Below are positions 2,777 to 61,311 of a DNA stretch of 64,000 nt, one piece after another. This stretch comes from a bacterium. Lineage in GTDB: Bacteria; UBA8248. A program made the translations under genes and the position numbers. How positions within the stretch are numbered: position 1 is the stretch's first letter; each line of letters starts with the position of its first letter. Under the pieces are notes generated by a model. That model saw only the letters and a list, made by a program, of their open reading frames with translations, did not search any database and was not told the origin of the DNA. The stretch spans positions 1 to 64,000 of the forward strand of contig JAJEJD010000006.1 in assembly GCA_022828125.1 (NCBI GenBank). Reading direction: 5' to 3'.

Positions 2777-3304
2777 TTAATCATAAACGAACGAAGACCC
2801 GTGAATAGGTGACCAGATTAGTTGTTGGCCGGGTTCGACAGGCCACCCAACCCTATATTCGGCCAGTTCTTCTTCTAGTACTGATTCACAGACCCAGACG
2901 TGGGTTTCCCTAGTTGCTCCCGCTTGATTCCGAAGAAAGGCGAATATAGCGAGAGCGCCCGTGCTTTCCGAATCGAGCAGCGCCGAGACGCTACCGCCAC
3001 AATCACTCAGCCGCGCCTCATCCCTCATCCCGCCACGAAGCTTGTTGTTGTACCAGACGGCACGGCCAGTTCGATGATCAGCGTGAGAGTCGATATAGAG
3101 CGGGAAGCGAATATCGGGATTTTCCGACTCCGGCTGGTTGAGAGATGGAAAGATGGCAAACAGGAAATCACGATGAATGCGTGGACCGGCATCGTCTTCA
3201 TTCAAGGCCAGCGTATCACTGGCGGCGAGCCGTTTTACATACCAGATGATTTCAGGACGTGTAAATTCCATGAGCCAGTCGGAGAAATCGATTTTCTTTA
3301 TCAC
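2777..3304 (-). CDS. EcoRII-N (B3-like) DNA-binding domain protein, no nuclease domain
   Basis: This 175-residue protein resembles the N-terminal effector/DNA-recognition domain of the restriction enzyme EcoRII. Visible correspondences are the opening WLMEF...WYVKRLAASDT block, the FLFAIFPSLN block, the STGALAIFAF block and HVWVCESVLEEELAE near the end. Full EcoRII is about 400 residues with a C-terminal PD-(D/E)XK domain; here the protein stops after the N-domain. I chose the GTG at 3304 because AAGGGG lies six bases upstream and the protein then begins where EcoRII does. The locus is lower in G+C than its surroundings. The DUF3883 gene upstream on the same strand may supply catalysis. No methyltransferase partner is visible. 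Confidence 0.7.
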   Translation of the reverse strand: MIKKIDFSDWLMEFTRPEIIWYVKRLAASDTLALNEDDAGPRIHRDFLFAIFPSLNQPESENPDIRFPLYIDSHADHRTGRAVWYNNKLRGGMRDEARLSDCGGSVSALLDSESTGALAIFAFLRNQAGATRETHVWVCESVLEEELAEYRVGWPVEPGQQLIWSPIHGSSFVYD

Positions 3305-3471
3305 AAGAGACCCCTTGTTTCGAATGTATCTGCTGAACCCTGCAACCATTCAACGAATTAGTGAATAATCGTCTTATACGAAAGTTTCCCCTGCCCTTCG
3401 AGAGCACGTTCCCCGACGAATAGACATCAAGGATGGAAATGCGGGTAAGCATAGCCAAGCGAGGAACAGCC

Positions 3472-3663
3472 ATGAACAAAGATAGTCGCATGAAATTTTG
3501 GAATGACCAAATGCGGCGTGCCGAGAACATTCAAAACACGGGAGTAGTAGCTGACTTTTTTGTCGTATCGTTCCCTAGAGAGTGGCCCTGTAGATCGTCG
3601 GAGAAAGATGGACGTGATTTTCCAGTGGTGGTTTCAAACAATATGCTCGTTTTTGACGCCTGA
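3472..3663 (+). CDS. small hypothetical ORF, possibly a gene remnant
   Basis: This 63-codon frame starts MNKDSRMKFWNDQMRRAENI and is preceded by GAGGA with six-base spacing, a good ribosome binding site. Its last 30 codons lie antisense to the 3' end of the DUF3883 gene. The first half has a helical, protein-like composition, the second half less so, so this may be the truncated N-terminus of a gene whose remainder was lost when the nuclease island was acquired. I do not recognise the family. Confidence 0.3.
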   Translation: MNKDSRMKFWNDQMRRAENIQNTGVVADFFVVSFPREWPCRSSEKDGRDFPVVVSNNMLVFDA

Positions 3664-4435
3664 AATCGTATAGCCTGATGAGCCTGAAGATATCGGGACG
3701 TTTCTCTGAAATCGACAACTCGTTTCTGGTAATAAAAAAAGGCGTTGTTTTAGGGCCAGTTGTCGTCTTTATTTCCAGCCAGCGCTCTTGCTCGGCTAGC
3801 TTGCCTGTTCCATCAAAGGACAAGATGTCGTAACCGTAACCGTCTCCCTTATCGCGGGCGATCCAACTAACACTGTCGGATAAGTCTTTCCTGCCAAGAT
3901 TATACAGACGACGCTTCTCGGATTCGAAGGCGTACTCTTCGCCCGCTTTTCCGAGTGCCCGATTTCGGGCATCTCTTTCGGCTGGAGATTCAAATCTTTT
4001 AACGATACGGTAGATGTCCTCCGAAAGATTATGCTCCGACTCTTCTCGTAGCGGAGGCGCGTCGTCAAATACAAGACCAGACTCGCTGAGAGATTCCTCG
4101 GAATGATGTTTTTGGTCCACATCTTCCCCGGCTAAAAAAGTATAAAGTTGGCGGTTTTGAGTTAGGCGAGTTACGATGGTTTCAAATAACGCCGTCTGGT
4201 AATGACTATACGGTTTATAACCATTTATGTAAGGAAGACTCAGTTCAGCCAAAACTGCACTGATATTCATATGCTTTGATTCGATCGATCCTTTGGAGCG
4301 ACCAATTTTATTCATAAGAGCACGTCTGTGTTCGCTTTTATTGTAAGGTAGCCCGGCTTGTTCATGCCTAAGCATATCAAAATAGTCATCAACGATGGCG
4401 TGGATCTCGCCATCGGACCAATTTCGTCGGGTCAT
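3575..4435 (-). CDS. DUF3883 nuclease-like protein with N-terminal restriction-associated domain
   Basis: In this 286-residue protein the C-terminal part (about 160-270) is a DUF3883 domain: LGKAGEEYAFESEKRRL, then GYGYDILSFD, then EIKTTTG and TPFFITRNEL. Glu167, Asp203 and Glu221-x-Lys223 line up as a PD-(D/E)XK-type acidic triad plus lysine, so nuclease activity is plausible. The N-terminal half (about 5-85: YNKSEHRRAL, GRSKGSIESKHMNISAVL, GYKPYSHYQ) resembles a segment found in other restriction-type nucleases. The middle (105-145) is acidic and probably disordered. It lies 270 bp upstream of the EcoRII-N gene on the same strand. Confidence 0.75.
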   Translation of the reverse strand: MTRRNWSDGEIHAIVDDYFDMLRHEQAGLPYNKSEHRRALMNKIGRSKGSIESKHMNISAVLAELSLPYINGYKPYSHYQTALFETIVTRLTQNRQLYTFLAGEDVDQKHHSEESLSESGLVFDDAPPLREESEHNLSEDIYRIVKRFESPAERDARNRALGKAGEEYAFESEKRRLYNLGRKDLSDSVSWIARDKGDGYGYDILSFDGTGKLAEQERWLEIKTTTGPKTTPFFITRNELSISEKRPDIFRLIRLYDFRRQKRAYCLKPPLENHVHLSPTIYRATL

Positions 4436-4591: not shown

Positions 4592-4823
4592 GGGGCTGTT
4601 GAAAAAGCCTCGCTTCGCTTGGGATTGACCTTTGCCTTTGTTCGTCATTCCGGCGAAAGCCGGAATCCATTTTCGCCTTTGTCTTTGGCCTTTCGCCCGG
4701 GCGTCCTCCCTCCCGCAAGTCGGAATCAAATGCGAAAACGAAAGCAAAAATCATAAAATGGATTCCGGCTTTCGCCGGAATGACGGTGGTCTTCCCATAT
4801 CGAGGGGTTTTTTCAACAGCCCC
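4592..4823. repeat. composite palindromic element: GGGGCTGTTGAAAAAG ends around dRS3-like arms
   Basis: The outer ends GGGGCTGTTGAAAAAGCC (from 4592) and ttttttcaacagcccc (to 4823) are reverse complements. Inside, 4643-4673 and 4755-4785 are 31-bp reverse complements built on gtcattccggcgaaagccgg. That inner unit resembles the widespread Neisseria-type dRS3 and related REP sequences. The roughly 80-bp centre is not a recognisable gene. Confidence 0.8.
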
Positions 4824-4980
4824 CTTGAGGGTCAATTTTGACAAGCATGGAGGGGCTGGTAGGGACAACCCCTCCCGGTTGTCCTTTCCCTGTGGTTGTC
4901 CTTGCCGGGGCAGGCGTGGAGGTTGGACAGGCACGGGGGCCTGTCCCTACCCTGGCATGATGGAGAAAAACGAAACGCGC

Positions 4981-5006
4981 GGGCGGACACACGGGTCCGC
5001 CCCTAC
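4981..5006. repeat. short palindrome gggcggacac...ggtccgcccctac
   Basis: This 26-bp imperfect palindrome ends in CCCCTAC. A second copy lies at 35301-35326 with only a couple of changes. It belongs with the other palindromes of the window that share GTAGGG/CCCTAC edges. Confidence 0.65.
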
Positions 5007-5196
5007 GGAACCGCGACCCTCCGACATGGACAACCACGGAGGGTTGTCCCTACCCAACCGCGCCCTTTTTATCTTCCGGGTGAGGCACTCAGCGCAAAGC
5101 GCGTCCGACCGCCGGTAGCCCTGGGGTTTTCCGGCGGGTCGTGCGATAGTGAGCGCGCTGGTTGATTCTGGAAACGATAGCCGACAGGAAACCCCG

Positions 5197-5997
5197 ATGA
5201 GCTTGCGCAGGTGGAAGGACAGGATGGTGGCGCGTCTGCTGACGCGCTATCCGGGCCTGGTGAAAAGGTGGGCGGGGGCCAAGGATTTCTCCGCCGAGAT
5301 GGCCGGCTGGCGCGCGGGACCCGCGTTCACGCCCTGGACGCCGCTTGAGAAGCCGGTTCGCGAGTGCGCCGTTGCGCTGGTGACGACGGGCGGGGTGCAC
5401 CTCAAGACGCAAGTCCCCTTCGACATGGAAAACCCCGACGGCGACCCGACGTTCCGCGAGATTCCGGGCGACGCTGCGCGCGATGAGATGACGATAACGC
5501 ATGATTACTACGACCACAGGGGAGCGGATGTGGATTTGAACGTCGTCTTCCCGCACGAGCGGCTCGCCGAGATGGCGGCGGAGGGGGCGATTGGCGGGGT
5601 CTCGCCGGTTCATTTGAGCTTCATGGGCCACATCGATGCGGAACTCGTGGAGCGGCTCGTGGAGGAAACGGCGCCGGCCGCGGCGCGGCGGCTGCGCCAA
5701 GCGGGGGCGGAGGTCGCGCTGCTGGCGCCCGCCTGAGGGCTTTGCAACCGCTCGGTCGGGCTGATTCAGAACGCGGTGGAACGGGAGGGGCTGGCCACCG
5801 TCTCGGTGAGCATCGTGAAGGAGATAACGGCCGGGCTATGCCCGCCGCGGGCCGTGTTCGTCCCCTGGCCGCTGGGGCATCCCTTCGGCAAAGCGGGAAA
5901 TCTTGAACAGCAGCGCGCCGTGCTGTATGATATGATCGAGTTGCTGGAGAGCGCCGAGGCGCCGGGAACGCTGGTTGAGCGGGACCATCCCTGGTGA
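5197..5997 (+). CDS. GrdB/PrdB-type reductase family selenoprotein (in-frame UGA = Sec180)
   Basis: Reading through the TGA at 5734-5736 gives one 266-residue protein of the glycine/sarcosine/betaine/D-proline reductase selenoprotein B family. Before the TGA are PFDMENPDGDPTFREIP, ITHDYYDH, NVVFPHERL and SFMGHI; after it, in the same frame, are GLCNRSVGLIQ and PPRAVFVPWPLGHP. The TGA falls at the active-site position and forms Sec-Gly-Leu-Cys (residues 180-183), a redox UxxC motif. The start has AGGA six bases upstream. The substrate is unknown: many short homologues exist outside amino-acid-fermenting clostridia. A nonsense mutation is the alternative, but the matching frame and motif make recoding much more likely. 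No sel genes lie in the window. Confidence 0.8.
5737..5778 (+). promoter_or_regulatory. candidate bacterial SECIS hairpin
   Basis: Immediately after the TGA, ACCGC (5747-5751) can pair with GCGGT (5773-5777). Above it TCGG (5752-5755) can pair with CTGA (5761-5764) through one G-U pair, leaving a five-base G-rich loop about 19 bases after the stop. Position and size suit SelB binding. The lower part has an asymmetric bulge, so the exact fold is uncertain. Confidence 0.4.
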
Positions 5998-6176: not shown

Positions 6177-6761
6177 ATGGACGCAGTCGCAGCCCCCATC
6201 ACACGCCTCGCGAAGGAGCTTGCGGACATTCACGATAACGGCGCGCATGGGCGGGACTTCATCCGCGCCGCCGAACCTCCCCTGAAACGCTTGCTGGACG
6301 CGGGTTCTTTCCTTCCGCCCGAGGCGCTCGAGCCTTCCGATGAAGGGTATGCGCGTCATTTGCTGTATCGCGACCCCGAGGAGCGCTTCGTCGTGGCGGC
6401 GATGGTGTGGAAACCCGGGCAGGGCACCCCGATTCACGATCATGACGGCTCCTGGGGGATGCTCGGCATGGTGGAGGGTGGCCTGGAAGTCGTTAATTAT
6501 TTTGCGGATGGGGAAATCACCGAAGGTGAGGTCGAGTTGAGAAACGATGCGCCTCACAATCCTTTGGCAGGCGGGCAGCATTCGGTTTGCGGCTGCGCGG
6601 ACATCCATACGGTGCGCAATCGGCGTGACGATGTGGCGGTTTCGGTTCATGTGTATCCGCGCGATTTGGAAGCGTGTCATTTCTTTGAGCCCATCGGCGG
6701 TGAGAAAAATCGCTTCTGCGCGCGCCGCGTCTCGATTTCCTATACGGGTGATTCTTCCTGA
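6177..6761 (+). CDS. cysteine dioxygenase-type cupin (thiol dioxygenase)
   Basis: This 194-residue cupin carries the iron ligands His87, His89 (PIHDHDGSWG) and His144 (DIHTVRN), the three-His arrangement of cysteine dioxygenase and 3-mercaptopropionate dioxygenase. These enzymes add O2 to a thiol to form a sulfinate. The substrate (cysteine or 3-mercaptopropionate) cannot be decided by eye. AGGAGG five bases before the ATG supports the start. It follows the selenoprotein but is separated by 180 bp of AT-rich DNA holding the 53-bp repeat, so co-transcription is doubtful. Its G+C looks like the chromosomal background rather than the lower-G+C genes after it. Confidence 0.8.
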   Translation: MDAVAAPITRLAKELADIHDNGAHGRDFIRAAEPPLKRLLDAGSFLPPEALEPSDEGYARHLLYRDPEERFVVAAMVWKPGQGTPIHDHDGSWGMLGMVEGGLEVVNYFADGEITEGEVELRNDAPHNPLAGGQHSVCGCADIHTVRNRRDDVAVSVHVYPRDLEACHFFEPIGGEKNRFCARRVSISYTGDSS

Positions 6762-6979: not shown

Positions 6980-7843
6980 ATGCGCAGCAAAGGTGGTTGG
7001 TATGCTGGTTTTGAGACGGTCTCGAATTTCCAAATGTTTTTCCGGGACTGGAGGCCGGCGAAGAAAAGTTCGTTTTTGCCTGTTATCGCATTGCATGGCT
7101 CGCTGATTCAGAGCGGTATGTGGAATGCTATGGCGGAAGGCGCGGGCTCGATACGCATGATATGCCCGGATCAAAGAGGATTCGGGCGAACGGATGACCC
7201 GGGTGCGGGTGATGCCGCAGCGGATTTCGCAAGAGACGTAATTGGCTTGGCCGACGCGCTTTTGCTGGACCGCTTCGTGGTGATGGGGCATTCCTTCGCC
7301 GCTTCAATTGCTCTGGCCGCCGCATCGATACGCCCGGATCGTGTCGCTGCGACCGTGTTGATGGACCCGACAGTGCGTGATGTTTCGGGCGCCAATGCGA
7401 ACCTGGAGGCCTCACGAAGTCGCCCGATGGAGTTCGAGGACATCGCGCAGGCCCAGAAATTCATAACACAGAGCGAGGAGGGAAACTGGCCATCCGCCAG
7501 GACAAGACGATTCTTGAGCGATGTATTGGTGCACGATGGCGCAAACGGCGCCTGGAGGGTTCCTTTTGAGAAAAGCAGAATCTTGAGATTGCGGGAATTT
7601 CAAGCCTCTTCCGCGAGCGATTACGACCCCGTTTTCTGGGCGCAGAGAACAAAATGCCCTTCTCTGGTATTTCGTGGAGGGGAAAGCAAGCGATTTAGCA
7701 AGAATTCGGAAGAGTCGTTAATGGATGCGCTGCCGATGAAATCAAGAGTGGTCGTATGTGCGAGAGCCGGTCATTTTCCGAGCGTTTCCGAGCCGACCAT
7801 CGTGCAGCGAGAACTCAAGGCGTTTTTGGCAGATTTGAAATGA
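6980..7843 (+). CDS. alpha/beta hydrolase
   Basis: This 287-residue alpha/beta-hydrolase has the oxyanion segment ALHGS (38-41), the nucleophile elbow MGHSFAAS with Ser105, and a C-terminal RAGHFPS with His265. The usual acid after strand 7 appears as Glu235 (FRGGES) rather than the common Asp. Substrate specificity is not readable; neighbouring CoA-transferase genes would fit an ester- or lactone-cleaving step of a carboxylate pathway, which is inference. AGAGG five bases upstream supports the start. Its stop overlaps the next gene's start as ATGA, so the two are likely translationally coupled. Confidence 0.85.
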   Translation: MRSKGGWYAGFETVSNFQMFFRDWRPAKKSSFLPVIALHGSLIQSGMWNAMAEGAGSIRMICPDQRGFGRTDDPGAGDAAADFARDVIGLADALLLDRFVVMGHSFAASIALAAASIRPDRVAATVLMDPTVRDVSGANANLEASRSRPMEFEDIAQAQKFITQSEEGNWPSARTRRFLSDVLVHDGANGAWRVPFEKSRILRLREFQASSASDYDPVFWAQRTKCPSLVFRGGESKRFSKNSEESLMDALPMKSRVVVCARAGHFPSVSEPTIVQRELKAFLADLK

Positions 7844-10050
7844 ATAAACGAAACGGCAGCAATCTTCATATTGAGACCGAACTCAGTCGAGATTTGGGGC
7901 TCGCGTCCGCACTTTCGATTGGCGTCGGTACAATGATAGCGGCAGGTATTTTTACTTTATCCGGCTTGGCTGTAAGGGATGTCGGCTCATCAGCCGTCAT
8001 CGCTTTTCTTTTAGCCGCGCTTGTCGCCGGGTTCACTGCGCTCACCTATTGCGAATTCTCATCTCTTTATCCGGAATCCGGAGAAGGGTATCTCTATGCG
8101 AGAAGAACATTTCCACCGCCACTCGCTTATCTTGTTGGGTGGACATTGGTGCTTGGTTACACTTCTTCATGCGCTTTCTATATCAGCAGCCTTTCTTCCT
8201 ATTTCAACGAATTCGTCTGGCATTCTCCTTATGAGCAAATATCGGGAATCATAGGACTAGTCTGTCTCGTATTGCTTAACATCAAGGGAACAAAGGAATC
8301 GGCTCGGTTTCAAATCCTCATTACTGCCGGAAAGGTCATCCTTTTGGTTTGGTTTGTATTTGGCGGGCTAGGAAATGTGGACACAAAAGCCCTTGTCGAA
8401 AGAATGAGTATGGACATACCGAGGATTGGCGCGACTGCCGGTTTGGTTTTTATTACTTTTTTTGGTTTTTCGGCAATTGCCGCATCAGCTGGGGAAATCT
8501 CGAATCCCACCAAGACAATTCCTCGTTCGATATTTCTTTCCATGATGATCGTGACGATTCTATATACAATGGTCGTCTTTGTTATCATTGCCGCCAACCT
8601 TACGGAATATACGGAAGCGGCGATGGGTAATGCGGCGCGTCTATTCCTGGGTCCCATTGGTGGTATGGTGATAGTCGTAGGCGCGCTTTTCTCAATGATT
8701 TCTGCATCCAACGCATCGATATTAGCGGGTTCGAGAGTTGTTTTATCCATGGCGCAGCTAGGGCATTTGCCCTCTGGTATCGCGGCGATCAATTCACAGA
8801 CACGCACTCCCATAATTTCGCTTATTCTGGTGGGAGGAACAATTGTTGTCTTTGCGCAAAGTTTTCACTTGGAGAAGCTGGCGCACTTTGCAGATACAAT
8901 TCTTTTGCTGGCACTGATATTAGTGAATGCAGCGCTCATCTATCATCGAAAGAAATTTCCAAATCTCCCCAGGTCTTTTCGTGTCCCGTTCGTTCCGTTT
9001 TTGCCGCTACTTGGAATTGTCGCAAATGTGTATTTACTCACACTTATACTTCGGCATCCTGAGCCAGTTATCATGGCGGTCTTATGGCTTATTGTGGGAA
9101 TGCTTGGTTTTCTGGCCTGGAAAGGTTCTCAGGCAGAGGAGGAATACTTGCCGGGTGAACCATCCCGCGTAGCGCAAGTTAGCATGGAGGGGCAAGAGAG
9201 TAATTTTCGCGTGTTGGTTCCCATTGCAAACCCGACAAATGTGATTCCTCTAATTGATCTAGCCTCAGCGATTGCCATAGAAAATGACGGTGAATTAATC
9301 GTTATGCGGGTTGTATCTTTGCCGGAGCAGGCGCCAACGAGTCGCGAGAGTTCATATATTGAACGAGAAAGACGAATTTTGGAGCAGGCTCATATCCACG
9401 CCAATTCAAAGGGTGTCAAAATCAGTTCCCTGGTAAGGATCGGGCGTAACCCGGCGCGCGCTATTCTGGAAACGGCAAGAGAGCGTCATTGTGATCTGAT
9501 CGTGCTTGGCTGGAAAGGCTATACTTCTACCGCCAATCGTATTTTAGGTGAAATTGTGGATGATGTCGTAAAACTTGCACGGGCGGACATTATGCTGGTG
9601 AAACTTGTAAGTGAGATGAAATTCAAGAATATCCTTTTACCAACAACCGGAGGAATACATGCGCGCTTGGCAGAACGATATACGGCTCCTATTGCCAGCG
9701 CTTACAATGCTAGACTCGTTGTATCGACTATTATTTCTCCAGAGTCAGAAGGAACTCACAAACACTCCGTCGAACAAGCTTTGAGCGAGGCGGTAGGCAG
9801 GATCAACGATGAGAGTAGTGTTCATGTGGAGAGCCGAATCATCACGCATAAATCCGTTTCCGTAGGCATTATCCAAGCAGCAGAAGAATATGACGCCATT
9901 GCAATGGGTGCCGCCGGCGAGAGTTTCTATAAACAGATTCTATTTGGTTCTATTCCTGAAAACGTTGCGAAACACACGGACAAAACAGTTATTGTGTACA
10001 AACAATATTCGCCAGTGAAAGCATTGGTGGACCGGGTGATGGAAAACTAA
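7840..10050 (+). CDS. APC-family amino acid permease fused to two universal stress protein domains
   Basis: In this 736-residue membrane protein residues about 10-430 form a twelve-helix APC transporter, opening with LGLASALSIGVGTMIAAGIF and containing FFGFSAIAASAGEISNPTKTIP. Two cytoplasmic UspA-like domains follow: the first at about 460-610 (FRVLVPIANPTN ... DLIVLGWKG), the second at about 617-725 (FKNILLPTTGG ... AIAMGAAGES). Such fusions are known in bacteria and archaea, and the Usp domains are thought to sense ATP or stress and adjust transport. The ATG overlaps the hydrolase stop by four bases. The transported substrate is unknown. Confidence 0.9.
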   Translation: MNKRNGSNLHIETELSRDLGLASALSIGVGTMIAAGIFTLSGLAVRDVGSSAVIAFLLAALVAGFTALTYCEFSSLYPESGEGYLYARRTFPPPLAYLVGWTLVLGYTSSCAFYISSLSSYFNEFVWHSPYEQISGIIGLVCLVLLNIKGTKESARFQILITAGKVILLVWFVFGGLGNVDTKALVERMSMDIPRIGATAGLVFITFFGFSAIAASAGEISNPTKTIPRSIFLSMMIVTILYTMVVFVIIAANLTEYTEAAMGNAARLFLGPIGGMVIVVGALFSMISASNASILAGSRVVLSMAQLGHLPSGIAAINSQTRTPIISLILVGGTIVVFAQSFHLEKLAHFADTILLLALILVNAALIYHRKKFPNLPRSFRVPFVPFLPLLGIVANVYLLTLILRHPEPVIMAVLWLIVGMLGFLAWKGSQAEEEYLPGEPSRVAQVSMEGQESNFRVLVPIANPTNVIPLIDLASAIAIENDGELIVMRVVSLPEQAPTSRESSYIERERRILEQAHIHANSKGVKISSLVRIGRNPARAILETARERHCDLIVLGWKGYTSTANRILGEIVDDVVKLARADIMLVKLVSEMKFKNILLPTTGGIHARLAERYTAPIASAYNARLVVSTIISPESEGTHKHSVEQALSEAVGRINDESSVHVESRIITHKSVSVGIIQAAEEYDAIAMGAAGESFYKQILFGSIPENVAKHTDKTVIVYKQYSPVKALVDRVMEN

Positions 10051-10132: not shown

Positions 10133-10852
10133 TTGTCTAAAATCATATCGAGTTCCATGGAAGCTGTTTCGGATATTCCCAATGGCGCATCGATACTTAT
10201 CGGTGGGTTTGGCATATGCGGAATGGCGCATAATTTATGTAAGGCACTTAGTAACCGAAAAGATGTCGGTGATTTCCATCTGGTGTCGAATGCAGGCGGA
10301 ATGGACGGTTGGGGTGTGGGCTTGATGTTTGAAAATCGACAGATTCGCTCCATTATCGCAAGCCGTGTGGGTCCGGCTTGTAAAGCTTATGAAGAACAAG
10401 CCTTGAAAAGGGAAATTGAAGTCGAGCTCTCCCCTCAAGGAACATTCACGGAGCGAATTCGAGCGGGCGGGGCAGGCATCGGTGGTTTCTTTACGCCAAC
10501 GGGAGCAGGCACCGTAGTAGCTGAAGGAAAAGAGACGAGAATTATTGGGGGGAAAGAATACATTTTTGAAGAGCCCATTCGAGCGGATTATGCTTTCATC
10601 AAGGCCTGGAAGGGAGACGAGCGTGGGAATCTGATATACAGGATGAGCGCGCAGAATTTTAATCCCATCATGGCCACTGCCGCCGAGGTGACTATCGCCG
10701 AAGTAGAAGAGATTGCTCCCGTCGGTGAAATTGCCCCAGAAAATGTGCATACGCCCGGGATTTTTGTGCAGCGCGTAGTTTTAGGTGAAGATATAGAAAA
10801 ACCTATCGAAATCATGACGAATCAGTCCCGAGAAGGCCTTGGGGGGAGATGA
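10133..10852 (+). CDS. CoA-transferase subunit A (3-oxoacid/3-oxoadipate type)
   Basis: This 239-residue class I CoA-transferase alpha subunit has the CoA-binding segment [13 protein letters not shown] near the N-terminus, then [27 protein letters not shown] and [23 protein letters not shown], as in the ScoA, AtoD and PcaI proteins. With the beta subunit it moves CoA between succinyl-CoA or acetyl-CoA and a 3-oxoacid. It starts with TTG (10133) and has GGGAG a short distance upstream. The beta subunit follows immediately. The specific acid cannot be assigned. Confidence 0.9.
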
Positions 10853-10853
10853 T

Positions 10854-11516
10854 TTGCCTTTGAGCAGACACGAAATTGCGAAGCGAGCAGCCATGGAAGT
10901 ACCTCGGGGGGGGTATGTCAATCTCGGGCTAGGCATACCTACCTTGGTGAGTAATTACATACCTGAGGAATATGGCGTCACCATACACTCGGAGAACGGT
11001 GTGTTGGGGGTAGGACCATTTCCATACGAAGGAGATGAAGATCCCGACCTGCTGAATGCCAGCAAAGAAACCGTGACGATTATGCCGGGAGGTTCGTGCT
11101 TTGATAGCGCCACTTCATTTTCTATGGTCAGAGGTGGGCATATAGACGTCACCATACTAGGCGCAATGGAAGTCGCTGGGAATGGTGACCTGGCGAATTG
11201 GGCAATCCCTGGCAAAATGATATCCGGCATGGGAGGTGCGATGGATCTCGTTGTGGGCGCCCGAAAAGTTATCCTCACAATGGAGCATGTTTCAAAACGA
11301 GGTGCGCCGAAAATTGTAAAGGCATGCTCTCTACCTTTAACCGGCAAAGGCGTAGTAGATGTCATCATTACTGATCTCGCGTTCATCACAGTGGAGACAG
11401 ACGGGCTCTTACTGCATGAACTCGCTCCTGGCGTGAGCGAAAGTGAAGTGCGGGATAAAACCGAGGCGCCTTTGAGGGTGGCTTCGGATTTGCGCGAGAT
11501 GTATGCGAATGCCTGA
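10854..11516 (+). CDS. CoA-transferase subunit B (3-oxoacid/3-oxoadipate type)
   Basis: This 220-residue class I CoA-transferase beta subunit carries the catalytic glutamate in HSENGVLG (Glu47), which forms the glutamyl-CoA thioester. It also has the family segments [26 protein letters not shown] and [22 protein letters not shown] chose TTG at 10854 because the strong ribosome binding site GGGGGGAG (10841-10848) ends five bases before it; an in-frame TTG at 10839 is the alternative. It begins one base after the alpha subunit stop and the two form the functional enzyme. Neighbours suggest carboxylate catabolism. Confidence 0.9.
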
Positions 11517-59248: not shown

Positions 59249-59349
59249 CGGGAGTATTCATGAGGGCGCGCGTGCCCTCTTTCATATCCTGAACGTGTCG
59301 GCGGGAGTTTTCCCCCGGTAAACCAAACTTACGAGGGATGCAGGAAACC

Positions 59350-61311
59350 ATGAGCGAAACCACGGCAGACGCACACGGCGCTCACGACCACCACGAGGGT
59401 GGGTTCTGGAGCACATACGTCTTCTCGCTGGATCACAAGATGATCGCCAGGCAGTTCCTCTGGCTCGGCCTCATCATGATGGTCGTCGGCGGAATTCTCG
59501 CCCTGATCTTCCGCTGGCAGCTCGCCTGGCCGGAGACCCAGGTATGGGGATTCGAGTGGATATCGGACGAGAGCGAGGGCATGCCCGAGGGCTACGTCAC
59601 GCCGAACTTCTACAACATGGCGGTCACGATGCACGCGACCATCATGGTGTTCCTCGTCGTGATGCCGATTCTGGTGGGCTGTTTCGGGAACTTCCTCATC
59701 CCGCTGATGATCGGGGCGCGCGACATGGCGTTCCCGCTGCTCAACATGCTTTCCTTCTGGGTCGCCGTTCTGGGCGCCGTCATCATGACCGCCGGATTCT
59801 TCGTCGAGGGGGGACACGCCGCTTCCGGCTGGACAGGCTACGCGCCGTTATCCACCGTGCCGGAATACACCGGCGTCTTCATGGGGCAGACGTTATGGGC
59901 GTTAAGCCTGTTCGTGCTGAGCTTCTCCTCGCTCATGGGTTCGATCAACTACATCACGACGCTCATCAACATGCGCACGGAGGGCATGACCTGGTTCCGG
60001 GTGCCGCTCGTCGTGTGGTCCCTGTTCGTCACCGCCATCCTGGGTCTGCTGGCCCTGCCTATCCTGGGATCCGCCGGTGCCATGATGATCTTCGACCGCG
60101 TGTTCGAGACAAACTTCTTCAATCCCGCGAAGGGGGGCGAACCCCTCCTGTGGCAGCATTTGTTCTGGTATTTCGGCCACCCGGAAGTCTACATCCTCAT
60201 TCTGCCGGGCATGGGCATCGCTTCGGAGTTGCTGCCCGTTTTTTGCAGAAAACCGATTTTCGGCTACCGGGCCATGGTGTACGCCATGCTCGCCATCGCC
60301 TTCCTGTCGTGGATCGTCTGGGGCCACCACATGTTCCAGTCCGGCATGAACCCCGCGCTGGGTTCGGCCTTTATGATGACGACGCTCGTCATCGCGATAC
60401 CATCGGCGATCAAGACCTTCAACTGGCTGGGCACCCTGTGGGGGGGCTCGATCCGCTTCACCGTGCCGATGCTCCACGCCCTGGCCTTCGTCATCCTGTT
60501 CGTCATCGGCGGGCTGAGCGGCATCTTCATGGCGTCGAACGTGGTGGACATCTACATCCACGACACCTACTTCATCGTGGCGCACTTCCACTACGTCATT
60601 TTCGGCGGCAGCGTCTTCGCGCTGTTCGGCGGCATTCAATATTGGTTCCCGAAAATGTTCGGAAGGGCCATGGACGAGGCGCTGGGCAAGGTGCACTTCT
60701 GGCTCACGTTCATCTTCTTCAACATGGTGTTCTTCCCGATGCACATCCTGGGCGTGGGCGGCCACATGCGGCGCATCTACAACCCCATGCAGTATGAGTT
60801 CCTGCAGGGCATGCAGCCGATCAACGTGATGATCACCCTCTCCGCGCTTGCGCTGGGGCTCTCGCAGATTCCCTTCGTGTTCAACTTCTTCGCCACCGTC
60901 TTCCGCTGGAACGCGAAATGGTTCCGCGTGCTCACCCAGGCGGTCTCGGCTCTCGTGGTCGGCTTCATCGGCTACAAGAGCGTGGCGGTGATGTTCGAGG
61001 GCATGATGGAGCCCGAGCCTTCGACGGGCGCGCGCATCGCGGGCACAATTGTCGCCATCGCGCTCGCGGTGTGGATCTACCGCTATCTCGAGAAGAACAT
61101 GGCTCCGCTGGGCGCCGACGCGCCCCAGAACCCCTGGGACGCCAACACGCTCGAGTGGGTGGCGCCTACGCCGGCGCCGCACGGGAACTTCGGCCCCACG
61201 CTGCCGGTGGTCCGGCGCGGACCCTATGAGTACAGCGTCCCCGGCGAGGAAGCGGACTGGGCGCCGCAGACCGAGACTATCGACCCCAAGTACGCCGAAG
61301 CCGGACACTAG
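59350..61311 (+). CDS. coxA: cytochrome c oxidase subunit I
   Basis: This 653-residue catalytic subunit has twelve or more helices with HATIMVFLVVMP (heme a ligand helix II), WGHHMFQSGM and HPEVYILILPG (heme a3/CuB histidines with the Tyr-His pair), and HFHYVIFGG (heme ligands of helix X). The C-terminal 90 residues extend beyond the common core. It reduces O2 to water and pumps protons. ATG 59350 has AGGA just upstream; ATG 59338 is also possible. It follows coxB by about 100 bases. Confidence 0.93.
   Translation: MSETTADAHGAHDHHEGGFWSTYVFSLDHKMIARQFLWLGLIMMVVGGILALIFRWQLAWPETQVWGFEWISDESEGMPEGYVTPNFYNMAVTMHATIMVFLVVMPILVGCFGNFLIPLMIGARDMAFPLLNMLSFWVAVLGAVIMTAGFFVEGGHAASGWTGYAPLSTVPEYTGVFMGQTLWALSLFVLSFSSLMGSINYITTLINMRTEGMTWFRVPLVVWSLFVTAILGLLALPILGSAGAMMIFDRVFETNFFNPAKGGEPLLWQHLFWYFGHPEVYILILPGMGIASELLPVFCRKPIFGYRAMVYAMLAIAFLSWIVWGHHMFQSGMNPALGSAFMMTTLVIAIPSAIKTFNWLGTLWGGSIRFTVPMLHALAFVILFVIGGLSGIFMASNVVDIYIHDTYFIVAHFHYVIFGGSVFALFGGIQYWFPKMFGRAMDEALGKVHFWLTFIFFNMVFFPMHILGVGGHMRRIYNPMQYEFLQGMQPINVMITLSALALGLSQIPFVFNFFATVFRWNAKWFRVLTQAVSALVVGFIGYKSVAVMFEGMMEPEPSTGARIAGTIVAIALAVWIYRYLEKNMAPLGADAPQNPWDANTLEWVAPTPAPHGNFGPTLPVVRRGPYEYSVPGEEADWAPQTETIDPKYAEAGH

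Follow-up and report, generated by a model that had tools for sequence, protein, structure and literature searches.

An in-frame TGA in a PrdB-like gene of a UBA8248 bacterium, almost certainly decoded as the selenocysteine of a Sec/Cys redox protein

Introduction

Is an in-frame TGA in a gene related to D-proline reductase read as selenocysteine (Sec), and what would such a protein do in a bacterium that carries a cytochrome oxidase? The question is posed by the gene at 5197-5997, on the forward strand of the window, by which we mean the whole stretch of 64,000 nucleotides analysed here (contig JAJEJD010000006.1 of assembly GCA_022828125.1, positions 1 to 64,000). D-proline reductase binds its substrate through the pyruvoyl group of PrdA; the attack on the alpha-carbon of proline comes from the Sec of PrdB, and the selenoether so formed is resolved by a cysteine of the same subunit (PMC3091704). 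For twenty years, Sec-PrdB has been listed as proline reductase among the most abundant selenoproteins of marine bacteria. The Sargasso Sea survey recorded 42 Sec-PrdB genes with a UxxC motif, placing them among its most abundant selenoproteins (PMC1088965), and the GOS survey recorded 235 Sec and 110 Cys PrdB genes (PMC2398784). Sec-PrdB has thus been known, and known as common in sea water, since 2005, and the gene in the window is a further member. What the present analysis adds is that PrdA is absent from the host lineage, that the clade is distinct, that the SECIS hairpin covaries and that the neighbourhood is conserved.

Reading frame and identity of the in-frame TGA

The gene extends from the ATG at 5197 to a terminal TGA at 5995-5997, and its read-through product consists of 266 residues, with Sec180 encoded by the in-frame TGA at 5734-5736. 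This residue opens a U-G-L-C motif (residues 180-183), in which Leu182 and Cys183, the resolving cysteine of the UxxC motif, are encoded at 5740-5745. Position 5197 is the preferred start, since the orthologues have in common both the N-terminal stretch MSLRRWKDR... and a conserved upstream ACAGGA. The original prediction, that a single family-like protein is obtained only when the TGA at 5734-5736 is read as Sec, proved correct in coordinates, frame and motif.

Four close orthologues from public MAGs (91-94% identity) have the identical TGA and the identical end point. In 17 genomes of the phylum, every PrdB-family match that spans the site contains exactly one TGA, and the few matches without it are fragments ending short of the site. 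Ka and Ks are 0.013-0.057 and 0.22-0.53 in the segment after the TGA, compared with 0.032-0.052 and 0.13-0.28 in the segment before it, so that the constraint is about equal in the two. Ka is far below Ks on both sides, and therefore both halves are under selection as one protein. The stretch 5197-5997 is a functional selenoprotein gene, in which the TGA at 5734-5736 is almost certainly decoded as selenocysteine, and the result is an uninterrupted redox protein akin to D-proline reductase.

The genome that contains the window (3.9 Mb, 97% complete) holds the entire set of SelA, SelB, SelD and tRNA-Sec. The selA (576 bits) and selB (384.5 bits) genes lie near each other on contig 30, the tRNA-Sec (75.9 bits) has a UCA anticodon, and selD (335 bits; G000:C30:4116-5078, L027) carries an in-frame TGA of its own, within GGUGSK. 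A search for selA, selB, selC and selD elsewhere in the genome had been proposed together with the prediction, and selA, selB, tRNA-Sec and selD were all found.

In alignment, the TGA falls on the Sec of PrdB from Peptoclostridium acidaminophilum and Acetoanaerobium noterae (UGTC), and on a Cys in Paraclostridium bifermentans (CGTC), Roseomonas (CPVC) and Haematobacter (CPIC). Outside the phylum, relatives occur in 13 of 99 sampled genomes. Ten of these have TGA copies only, and the other three have Cys (G026), Gly (G070) or Ser (G071) at the Sec site. The G070 homologue (L121) reads GPLG, with Gly at both redox positions, and the G071 homologue (L122) has Ser in place of Sec; SelA was not found in either genome, and both proteins are possible non-redox members of the family. 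With Gly and Ser at this site, the Sec/Cys rule does not hold throughout the wider superfamily. The expectation of Cys or Sec at residue 180 thus holds for the homologues nearest in motif, these two distant proteins being the exceptions. SelA scores above its cut-off in eight of the ten outside genomes with TGA copies, the exceptions being G048, which is 86% complete, and G090, in which the match is a GrdB. This last protein (L126, G090:C7:11038-11673) contains a TGA (UGTC) and lies in a 97% complete genome with no SelA at all.

A covarying SECIS hairpin downstream of the TGA

A bacterial SECIS hairpin is located at 5746-5766 on the forward strand. Its upper stem pairs 5750-5753 with 5758-5761 (GCUC/GGGC) and encloses the apical loop at 5754-5757 (GGUC), and beneath it lie a bulged U at 5762 and a weak lower stem between 5746-5749 and 5763-5766. 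The published bSECIS model describes a loop of 3-9 nt with G in the first two places, at least 4 bp, and a distance of 16-37 nt from the UGA (PMC13188914). The geometry of the window hairpin, with a GGUC loop 17 nt from the UGA and a 4 bp stem, lies within this model. Its minimal form reaches -4.3 kcal/mol, which is above the -7.5 threshold of the same model (PMC13188914); most of the 20 distinct copies tested from the phylum fold at -7.5 kcal/mol or lower, but not those nearest to the window.

When the 40-60 nt that follow the UGA are folded as a single sequence, the window RNA does not exceed its shuffles in stability, and against synonymous recoding the hairpin is not significant (p=0.28). 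The same recoding test yields p about 0.05 for the sister copies of G003 and G014 and 0.002-0.01 for several relatives. Because the window RNA performed no better than shuffles, single-sequence folding was dropped in favour of covariation across the family. Over 18 sequences, the share of paired cells is 82%; shuffles reach 65%, and slid controls no more than 53%. The covariation score is 0.407, compared with 0.139±0.029 in shuffles (0/500) and 0.023-0.121 in slid controls. With relatives from outside the phylum added, the score is 0.337 against 0.159 in shuffles, again 0/500. The apical loop of the family hairpin begins 17-18 nt after the UGA.

The clearest sign of the hairpin is a synonymous pattern in the third base of the Gly codon: opposite a Thr codon (ACN) this base is U (or C), and opposite a Ser codon (UCN) it is A or G, with counts of 7:1 against 0:16 (Fisher p=2.3e-5, uncorrected for kinship). 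Hairpins of the same shape and at the same distance from the UGA are present in GrdB, a distant homologue, and in SelD, which is unrelated in sequence. The SECIS is strongly supported at the level of the family, by covariation across 27 relatives, and the window's own copy is weak. The hairpin originally proposed for the first 40 bases after the TGA is accordingly upheld by family covariation, whereas the window copy taken alone does no better than chance.

Relation to PrdB, GrdB and the marine selenoproteins

The best NCBIfam model for the protein is PrdB (TIGR04483), which it matches at 159 bits and 1e-46 against an equivalog cut-off of 300. Full-length GrdB-type models give about 40 bits or less, and PF07355 is matched only at model positions 221-320 of 347. 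The earlier assignment to the GrdB/PrdB family is therefore narrowed to a likeness with PrdB more than with GrdB (159 versus 40 bits). PrdA was not found in 18 genomes, where the best match has 42 bits against a cut-off of 700; one of the weak matches to the PrdA model, with 25 bits, is the GrdE-type ORF in the genome that contains the window. Membership in the D-proline reductase equivalog (TIGR04483) was rejected, with PrdA absent and the score of 159 below 300. The protein is PrdB-like and not a demonstrated D-proline reductase.

Compared with clostridial PrdB (TIGR04483), the protein shows about 33-37% identity over some 215 residues, the same Sec column and a common region containing His102, Asp113, Asn115 and Pro119. 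It differs in its motif (UGLC instead of UGTC), its longer N-terminus, the lack of a PrdA partner, a score under the family cut-off and its separate clade. With selenoprotein B of the GrdB/GrdF/GrdH type (PF07355, TIGR01918) it shares a homologous C-terminal half with Sec; at 266 residues versus about 436 in GrdB, however, it is without the N-terminal half, and its UGLCNRS stretch is missing the third Cys of the UxxCxxC motif of GrdB. The Roseomonas and Haematobacter proteins annotated as "Glycine/sarcosine/betaine reductase selenoprotein B family protein" agree with it in the fold region and the redox column; their hosts are aerobic too, and PrdA was not noted nearby. They have Cys (CPVC, CPIC) for Sec, about 31-34% identity and different neighbours.

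In the tree, clostridial PrdB and GrdB fall together with support of 92/94, and the window's group, along with UPMC, UPLC and the alphaproteobacterial Cys forms, is located on the opposite side, a division to be read with caution in view of long branches. The predicted structure is confident past residue 40, with a mean pLDDT of 85. The UxxC redox motif is present at the PrdB Sec position, and Sec180 ends a beta-strand before a helix. A solved relative was not found by sequence, and by fold nothing convincing emerged, no solved structure clearly resembling the model (best E 0.012), so that the putative active site of Sec180 and Cys183 draws no support from structure.

The marine Sec "PrdB" proteins (PMC1088965, PMC2398784) resemble the window protein in the UxxC motif, in Sec at the same place of the motif and in a bacterial SECIS. 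They are abundant in oxygenated sea water, and the likeness is drawn by description, motif and the pfam07355 family. Whereas the survey sequences are fragments named proline reductase by similarity, the window gene has a known host genome, no PrdA and a conserved neighbourhood. Here is one lineage with two or more Sec PrdB-like genes in most genomes and PrdA in none of those searched, and this context warns against annotating such proteins as Stickland enzymes.

Gene neighbourhood and aerobic context

Downstream of the selenoprotein gene, on the same strand, lie a thiol dioxygenase of the cysteine / 3-mercaptopropionate dioxygenase family (PF05995) at 6177-6761, an alpha/beta hydrolase at 6980-7843, an APC amino acid permease with Usp domains at 7843-10050, and subunits A and B of a 3-oxoacid CoA-transferase at 10133-11516. 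The order of prdB-like gene, dioxygenase, hydrolase and CoA-transferase is kept in three genera (g1, g2 and g6), and a different APC permease stands at the permease position in L065. The dioxygenase is missing around the relatives in the 13 genomes outside the phylum and was not seen at the UPMC and UPLC paralogues inspected. A general gene-neighbour rule across the family was rejected, as the neighbours differ outside the phylum.

The PDB relatives of the dioxygenase are bacterial cysteine and 3-mercaptopropionate dioxygenases. The protein has the metal-binding HxH...H pattern and an SxHxY stretch, and an Arg is aligned with Gln62 of the Pseudomonas 3-mercaptopropionate dioxygenase (PDB 3uss); this Arg may point to a cysteine-like substrate. 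A 3-sulfinopropionate pathway combining dioxygenase and CoA-transferase is not claimed, the CoA-transferases here being of the 3-oxoacid type.

Aerobic life of the host is likely because cytochrome oxidase subunit I is encoded at 59338-61311. This gene and the thiol dioxygenase at 6177-6761 bear out the original description of the window as encoding an oxidase and O2-dependent enzymes. One PrdB-like gene of the lineage is kept beside an oxygen-dependent thiol enzyme; together with the two or more Sec genes in most genomes and the lack of PrdA in those searched, this makes the role of such proteins in oxygenated water directly testable.

Proposed function and alternative explanations

We assign a probability of roughly 0.7 to the reading of the product as a Sec-decoded, pyruvoyl-independent, PrdB-like Sec/Cys thiol reductase acting on an S-S, C-S or other electrophile. 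SelB and Sec-tRNA would decode the UGA at 5734-5736 as Sec180, guided by the hairpin, the loop of which opens some 18 nt further on. In the resulting PrdB-like oxidoreductase, Sec180 and Cys183 would form a redox pair where a beta-strand ends. If its chemistry is like that of PrdB, the Sec180 selenolate would attack a small substrate at an electrophilic S or C atom, after which Cys183 would resolve the adduct to a selenenylsulfide and a cellular dithiol system of the thioredoxin type would restore the enzyme. From the retention of the Sec/Cys pair and of the core residues His102, Asp113, Asn115 and Pro119, together with the loss of the pyruvoyl partner, we infer that the reductase is pyruvoyl-independent; it would work without PrdA and hence would not be a D-proline reductase. 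The non-Stickland redox role originally considered probable for the 5197-5997 gene is retained, with PrdA absent in 18 genomes. A guess from the order of the genes is that the selenoprotein might release or regenerate a thiol, which the adjacent O2-dependent thiol dioxygenase would then oxidise.

The main rival, which we consider quite possible though short of probable, is that the Sec protein has a general function in oxidative-stress defence, as thiol peroxidase or disulfide reductase, unconnected to the dioxygenase. The UxxC motif is of a thioredoxin-like redox type, a cytochrome oxidase is present in the lineage, and among the references of PMC3091704 is a peroxidase-activity study of the related GrdB; the relatives outside the phylum, having no common neighbour, are also what would be expected of a stand-alone redox enzyme. 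However, three genera of the phylum keep the gene in order with a catabolic-looking cluster, and the window's genome contains three diverged Sec PrdB-like paralogues, which point to several distinct substrates more than to a single, general role in defence.

That the gene encodes a regular PrdB of D-proline reductase, or a GrdB with an accessory part in Stickland-type reduction of amino acids, is very unlikely. Although PrdB is the best-scoring model, and the motif and its flanking residues align with clostridial PrdB, the 159 bits are half of the equivalog cut-off, PrdA is absent, and clostridial PrdB and GrdB group apart from the window's group, subject to the long branches mentioned above. 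The genome's GrdE pyruvoyl-type proprotein could in principle serve as a partner, but it lies on a different contig, where a GrdB of its own is paired with it.

The two weakest explanations were both rejected as having practically no chance. The first is a real stop at the TGA in a pseudogene or assembly error, the remainder being debris or a separate downstream product (a standard gene caller would yield ORFs of 195 and 73 residues); against it, the same TGA recurs in independent assemblies of several species, Ka/Ks after it is low, at about 0.06-0.17, no frameshift occurs, and Cys homologues run through the site. The second is a reassigned code with another amino acid at UGA (the frame is open with any residue there); against it, the gene itself and most orthologues end in TGA, in-frame TGA is lacking from large genes such as selA and selB and was not seen in the genes inspected, the TGA falls on positions that are Sec or Cys in relatives, and the hairpin shows covariation.

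Extending the preferred reading of a pyruvoyl-independent reductase beyond this locus is more speculative. The PrdB-like Sec proteins of oxygenated marine bacteria might form a distinct pyruvoyl-free selenoreductase class, misnamed since 2005, with the window's subfamily as the source of thiol for an O2-dependent thiol dioxygenase within a new organosulfur or thiol catabolic route; we regard this combined proposal as rather unlikely.

Other selenoprotein loci and flanking elements

Two further Sec PrdB-like paralogues of the genome have the motif UPLC (G000:C5:84423-85100, L003 and L075; G000:C19:225238-225915, L002 and L076). One of them directly follows an MFS transporter, and the other follows a mycothiol-type maleylpyruvate isomerase-like (MDMPI_N) gene. 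Another contig carries a Grd set (G000:C15:262639-265698, L001 and L127) consisting of GrdA with an in-frame TGA, GrdE, and a full-length GrdB with an in-frame TGA (UGTG). The usual acetyl-phosphate step of this set may be missing, because the protein C alpha subunit (NF040747) was not found in 18 genomes of the phylum, where the best matches have 20-30 bits against a cut-off of 350.

Within the window, a gene with an EcoRII-N domain and a NOV_C gene occupy 2777-4435, between doxX and the prdB-like gene. The EcoRII-N protein is 98.9% identical to its G006 copy, most neighbours being at 88-93%; it was not found in G007, and neither gene was found in the compared stretch of G003. The pair looks like a mobile defence-type insertion. 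Just upstream of the selenoprotein gene, the segments 4643-4785 and 4858-5054 contain an imperfect 54-nt inverted repeat (CGTCATTCCGGCGAAAGCCGGAATCC...) and G+C-rich 27-nt inverted repeats, intergenic elements of a MITE-like or REP-like kind.
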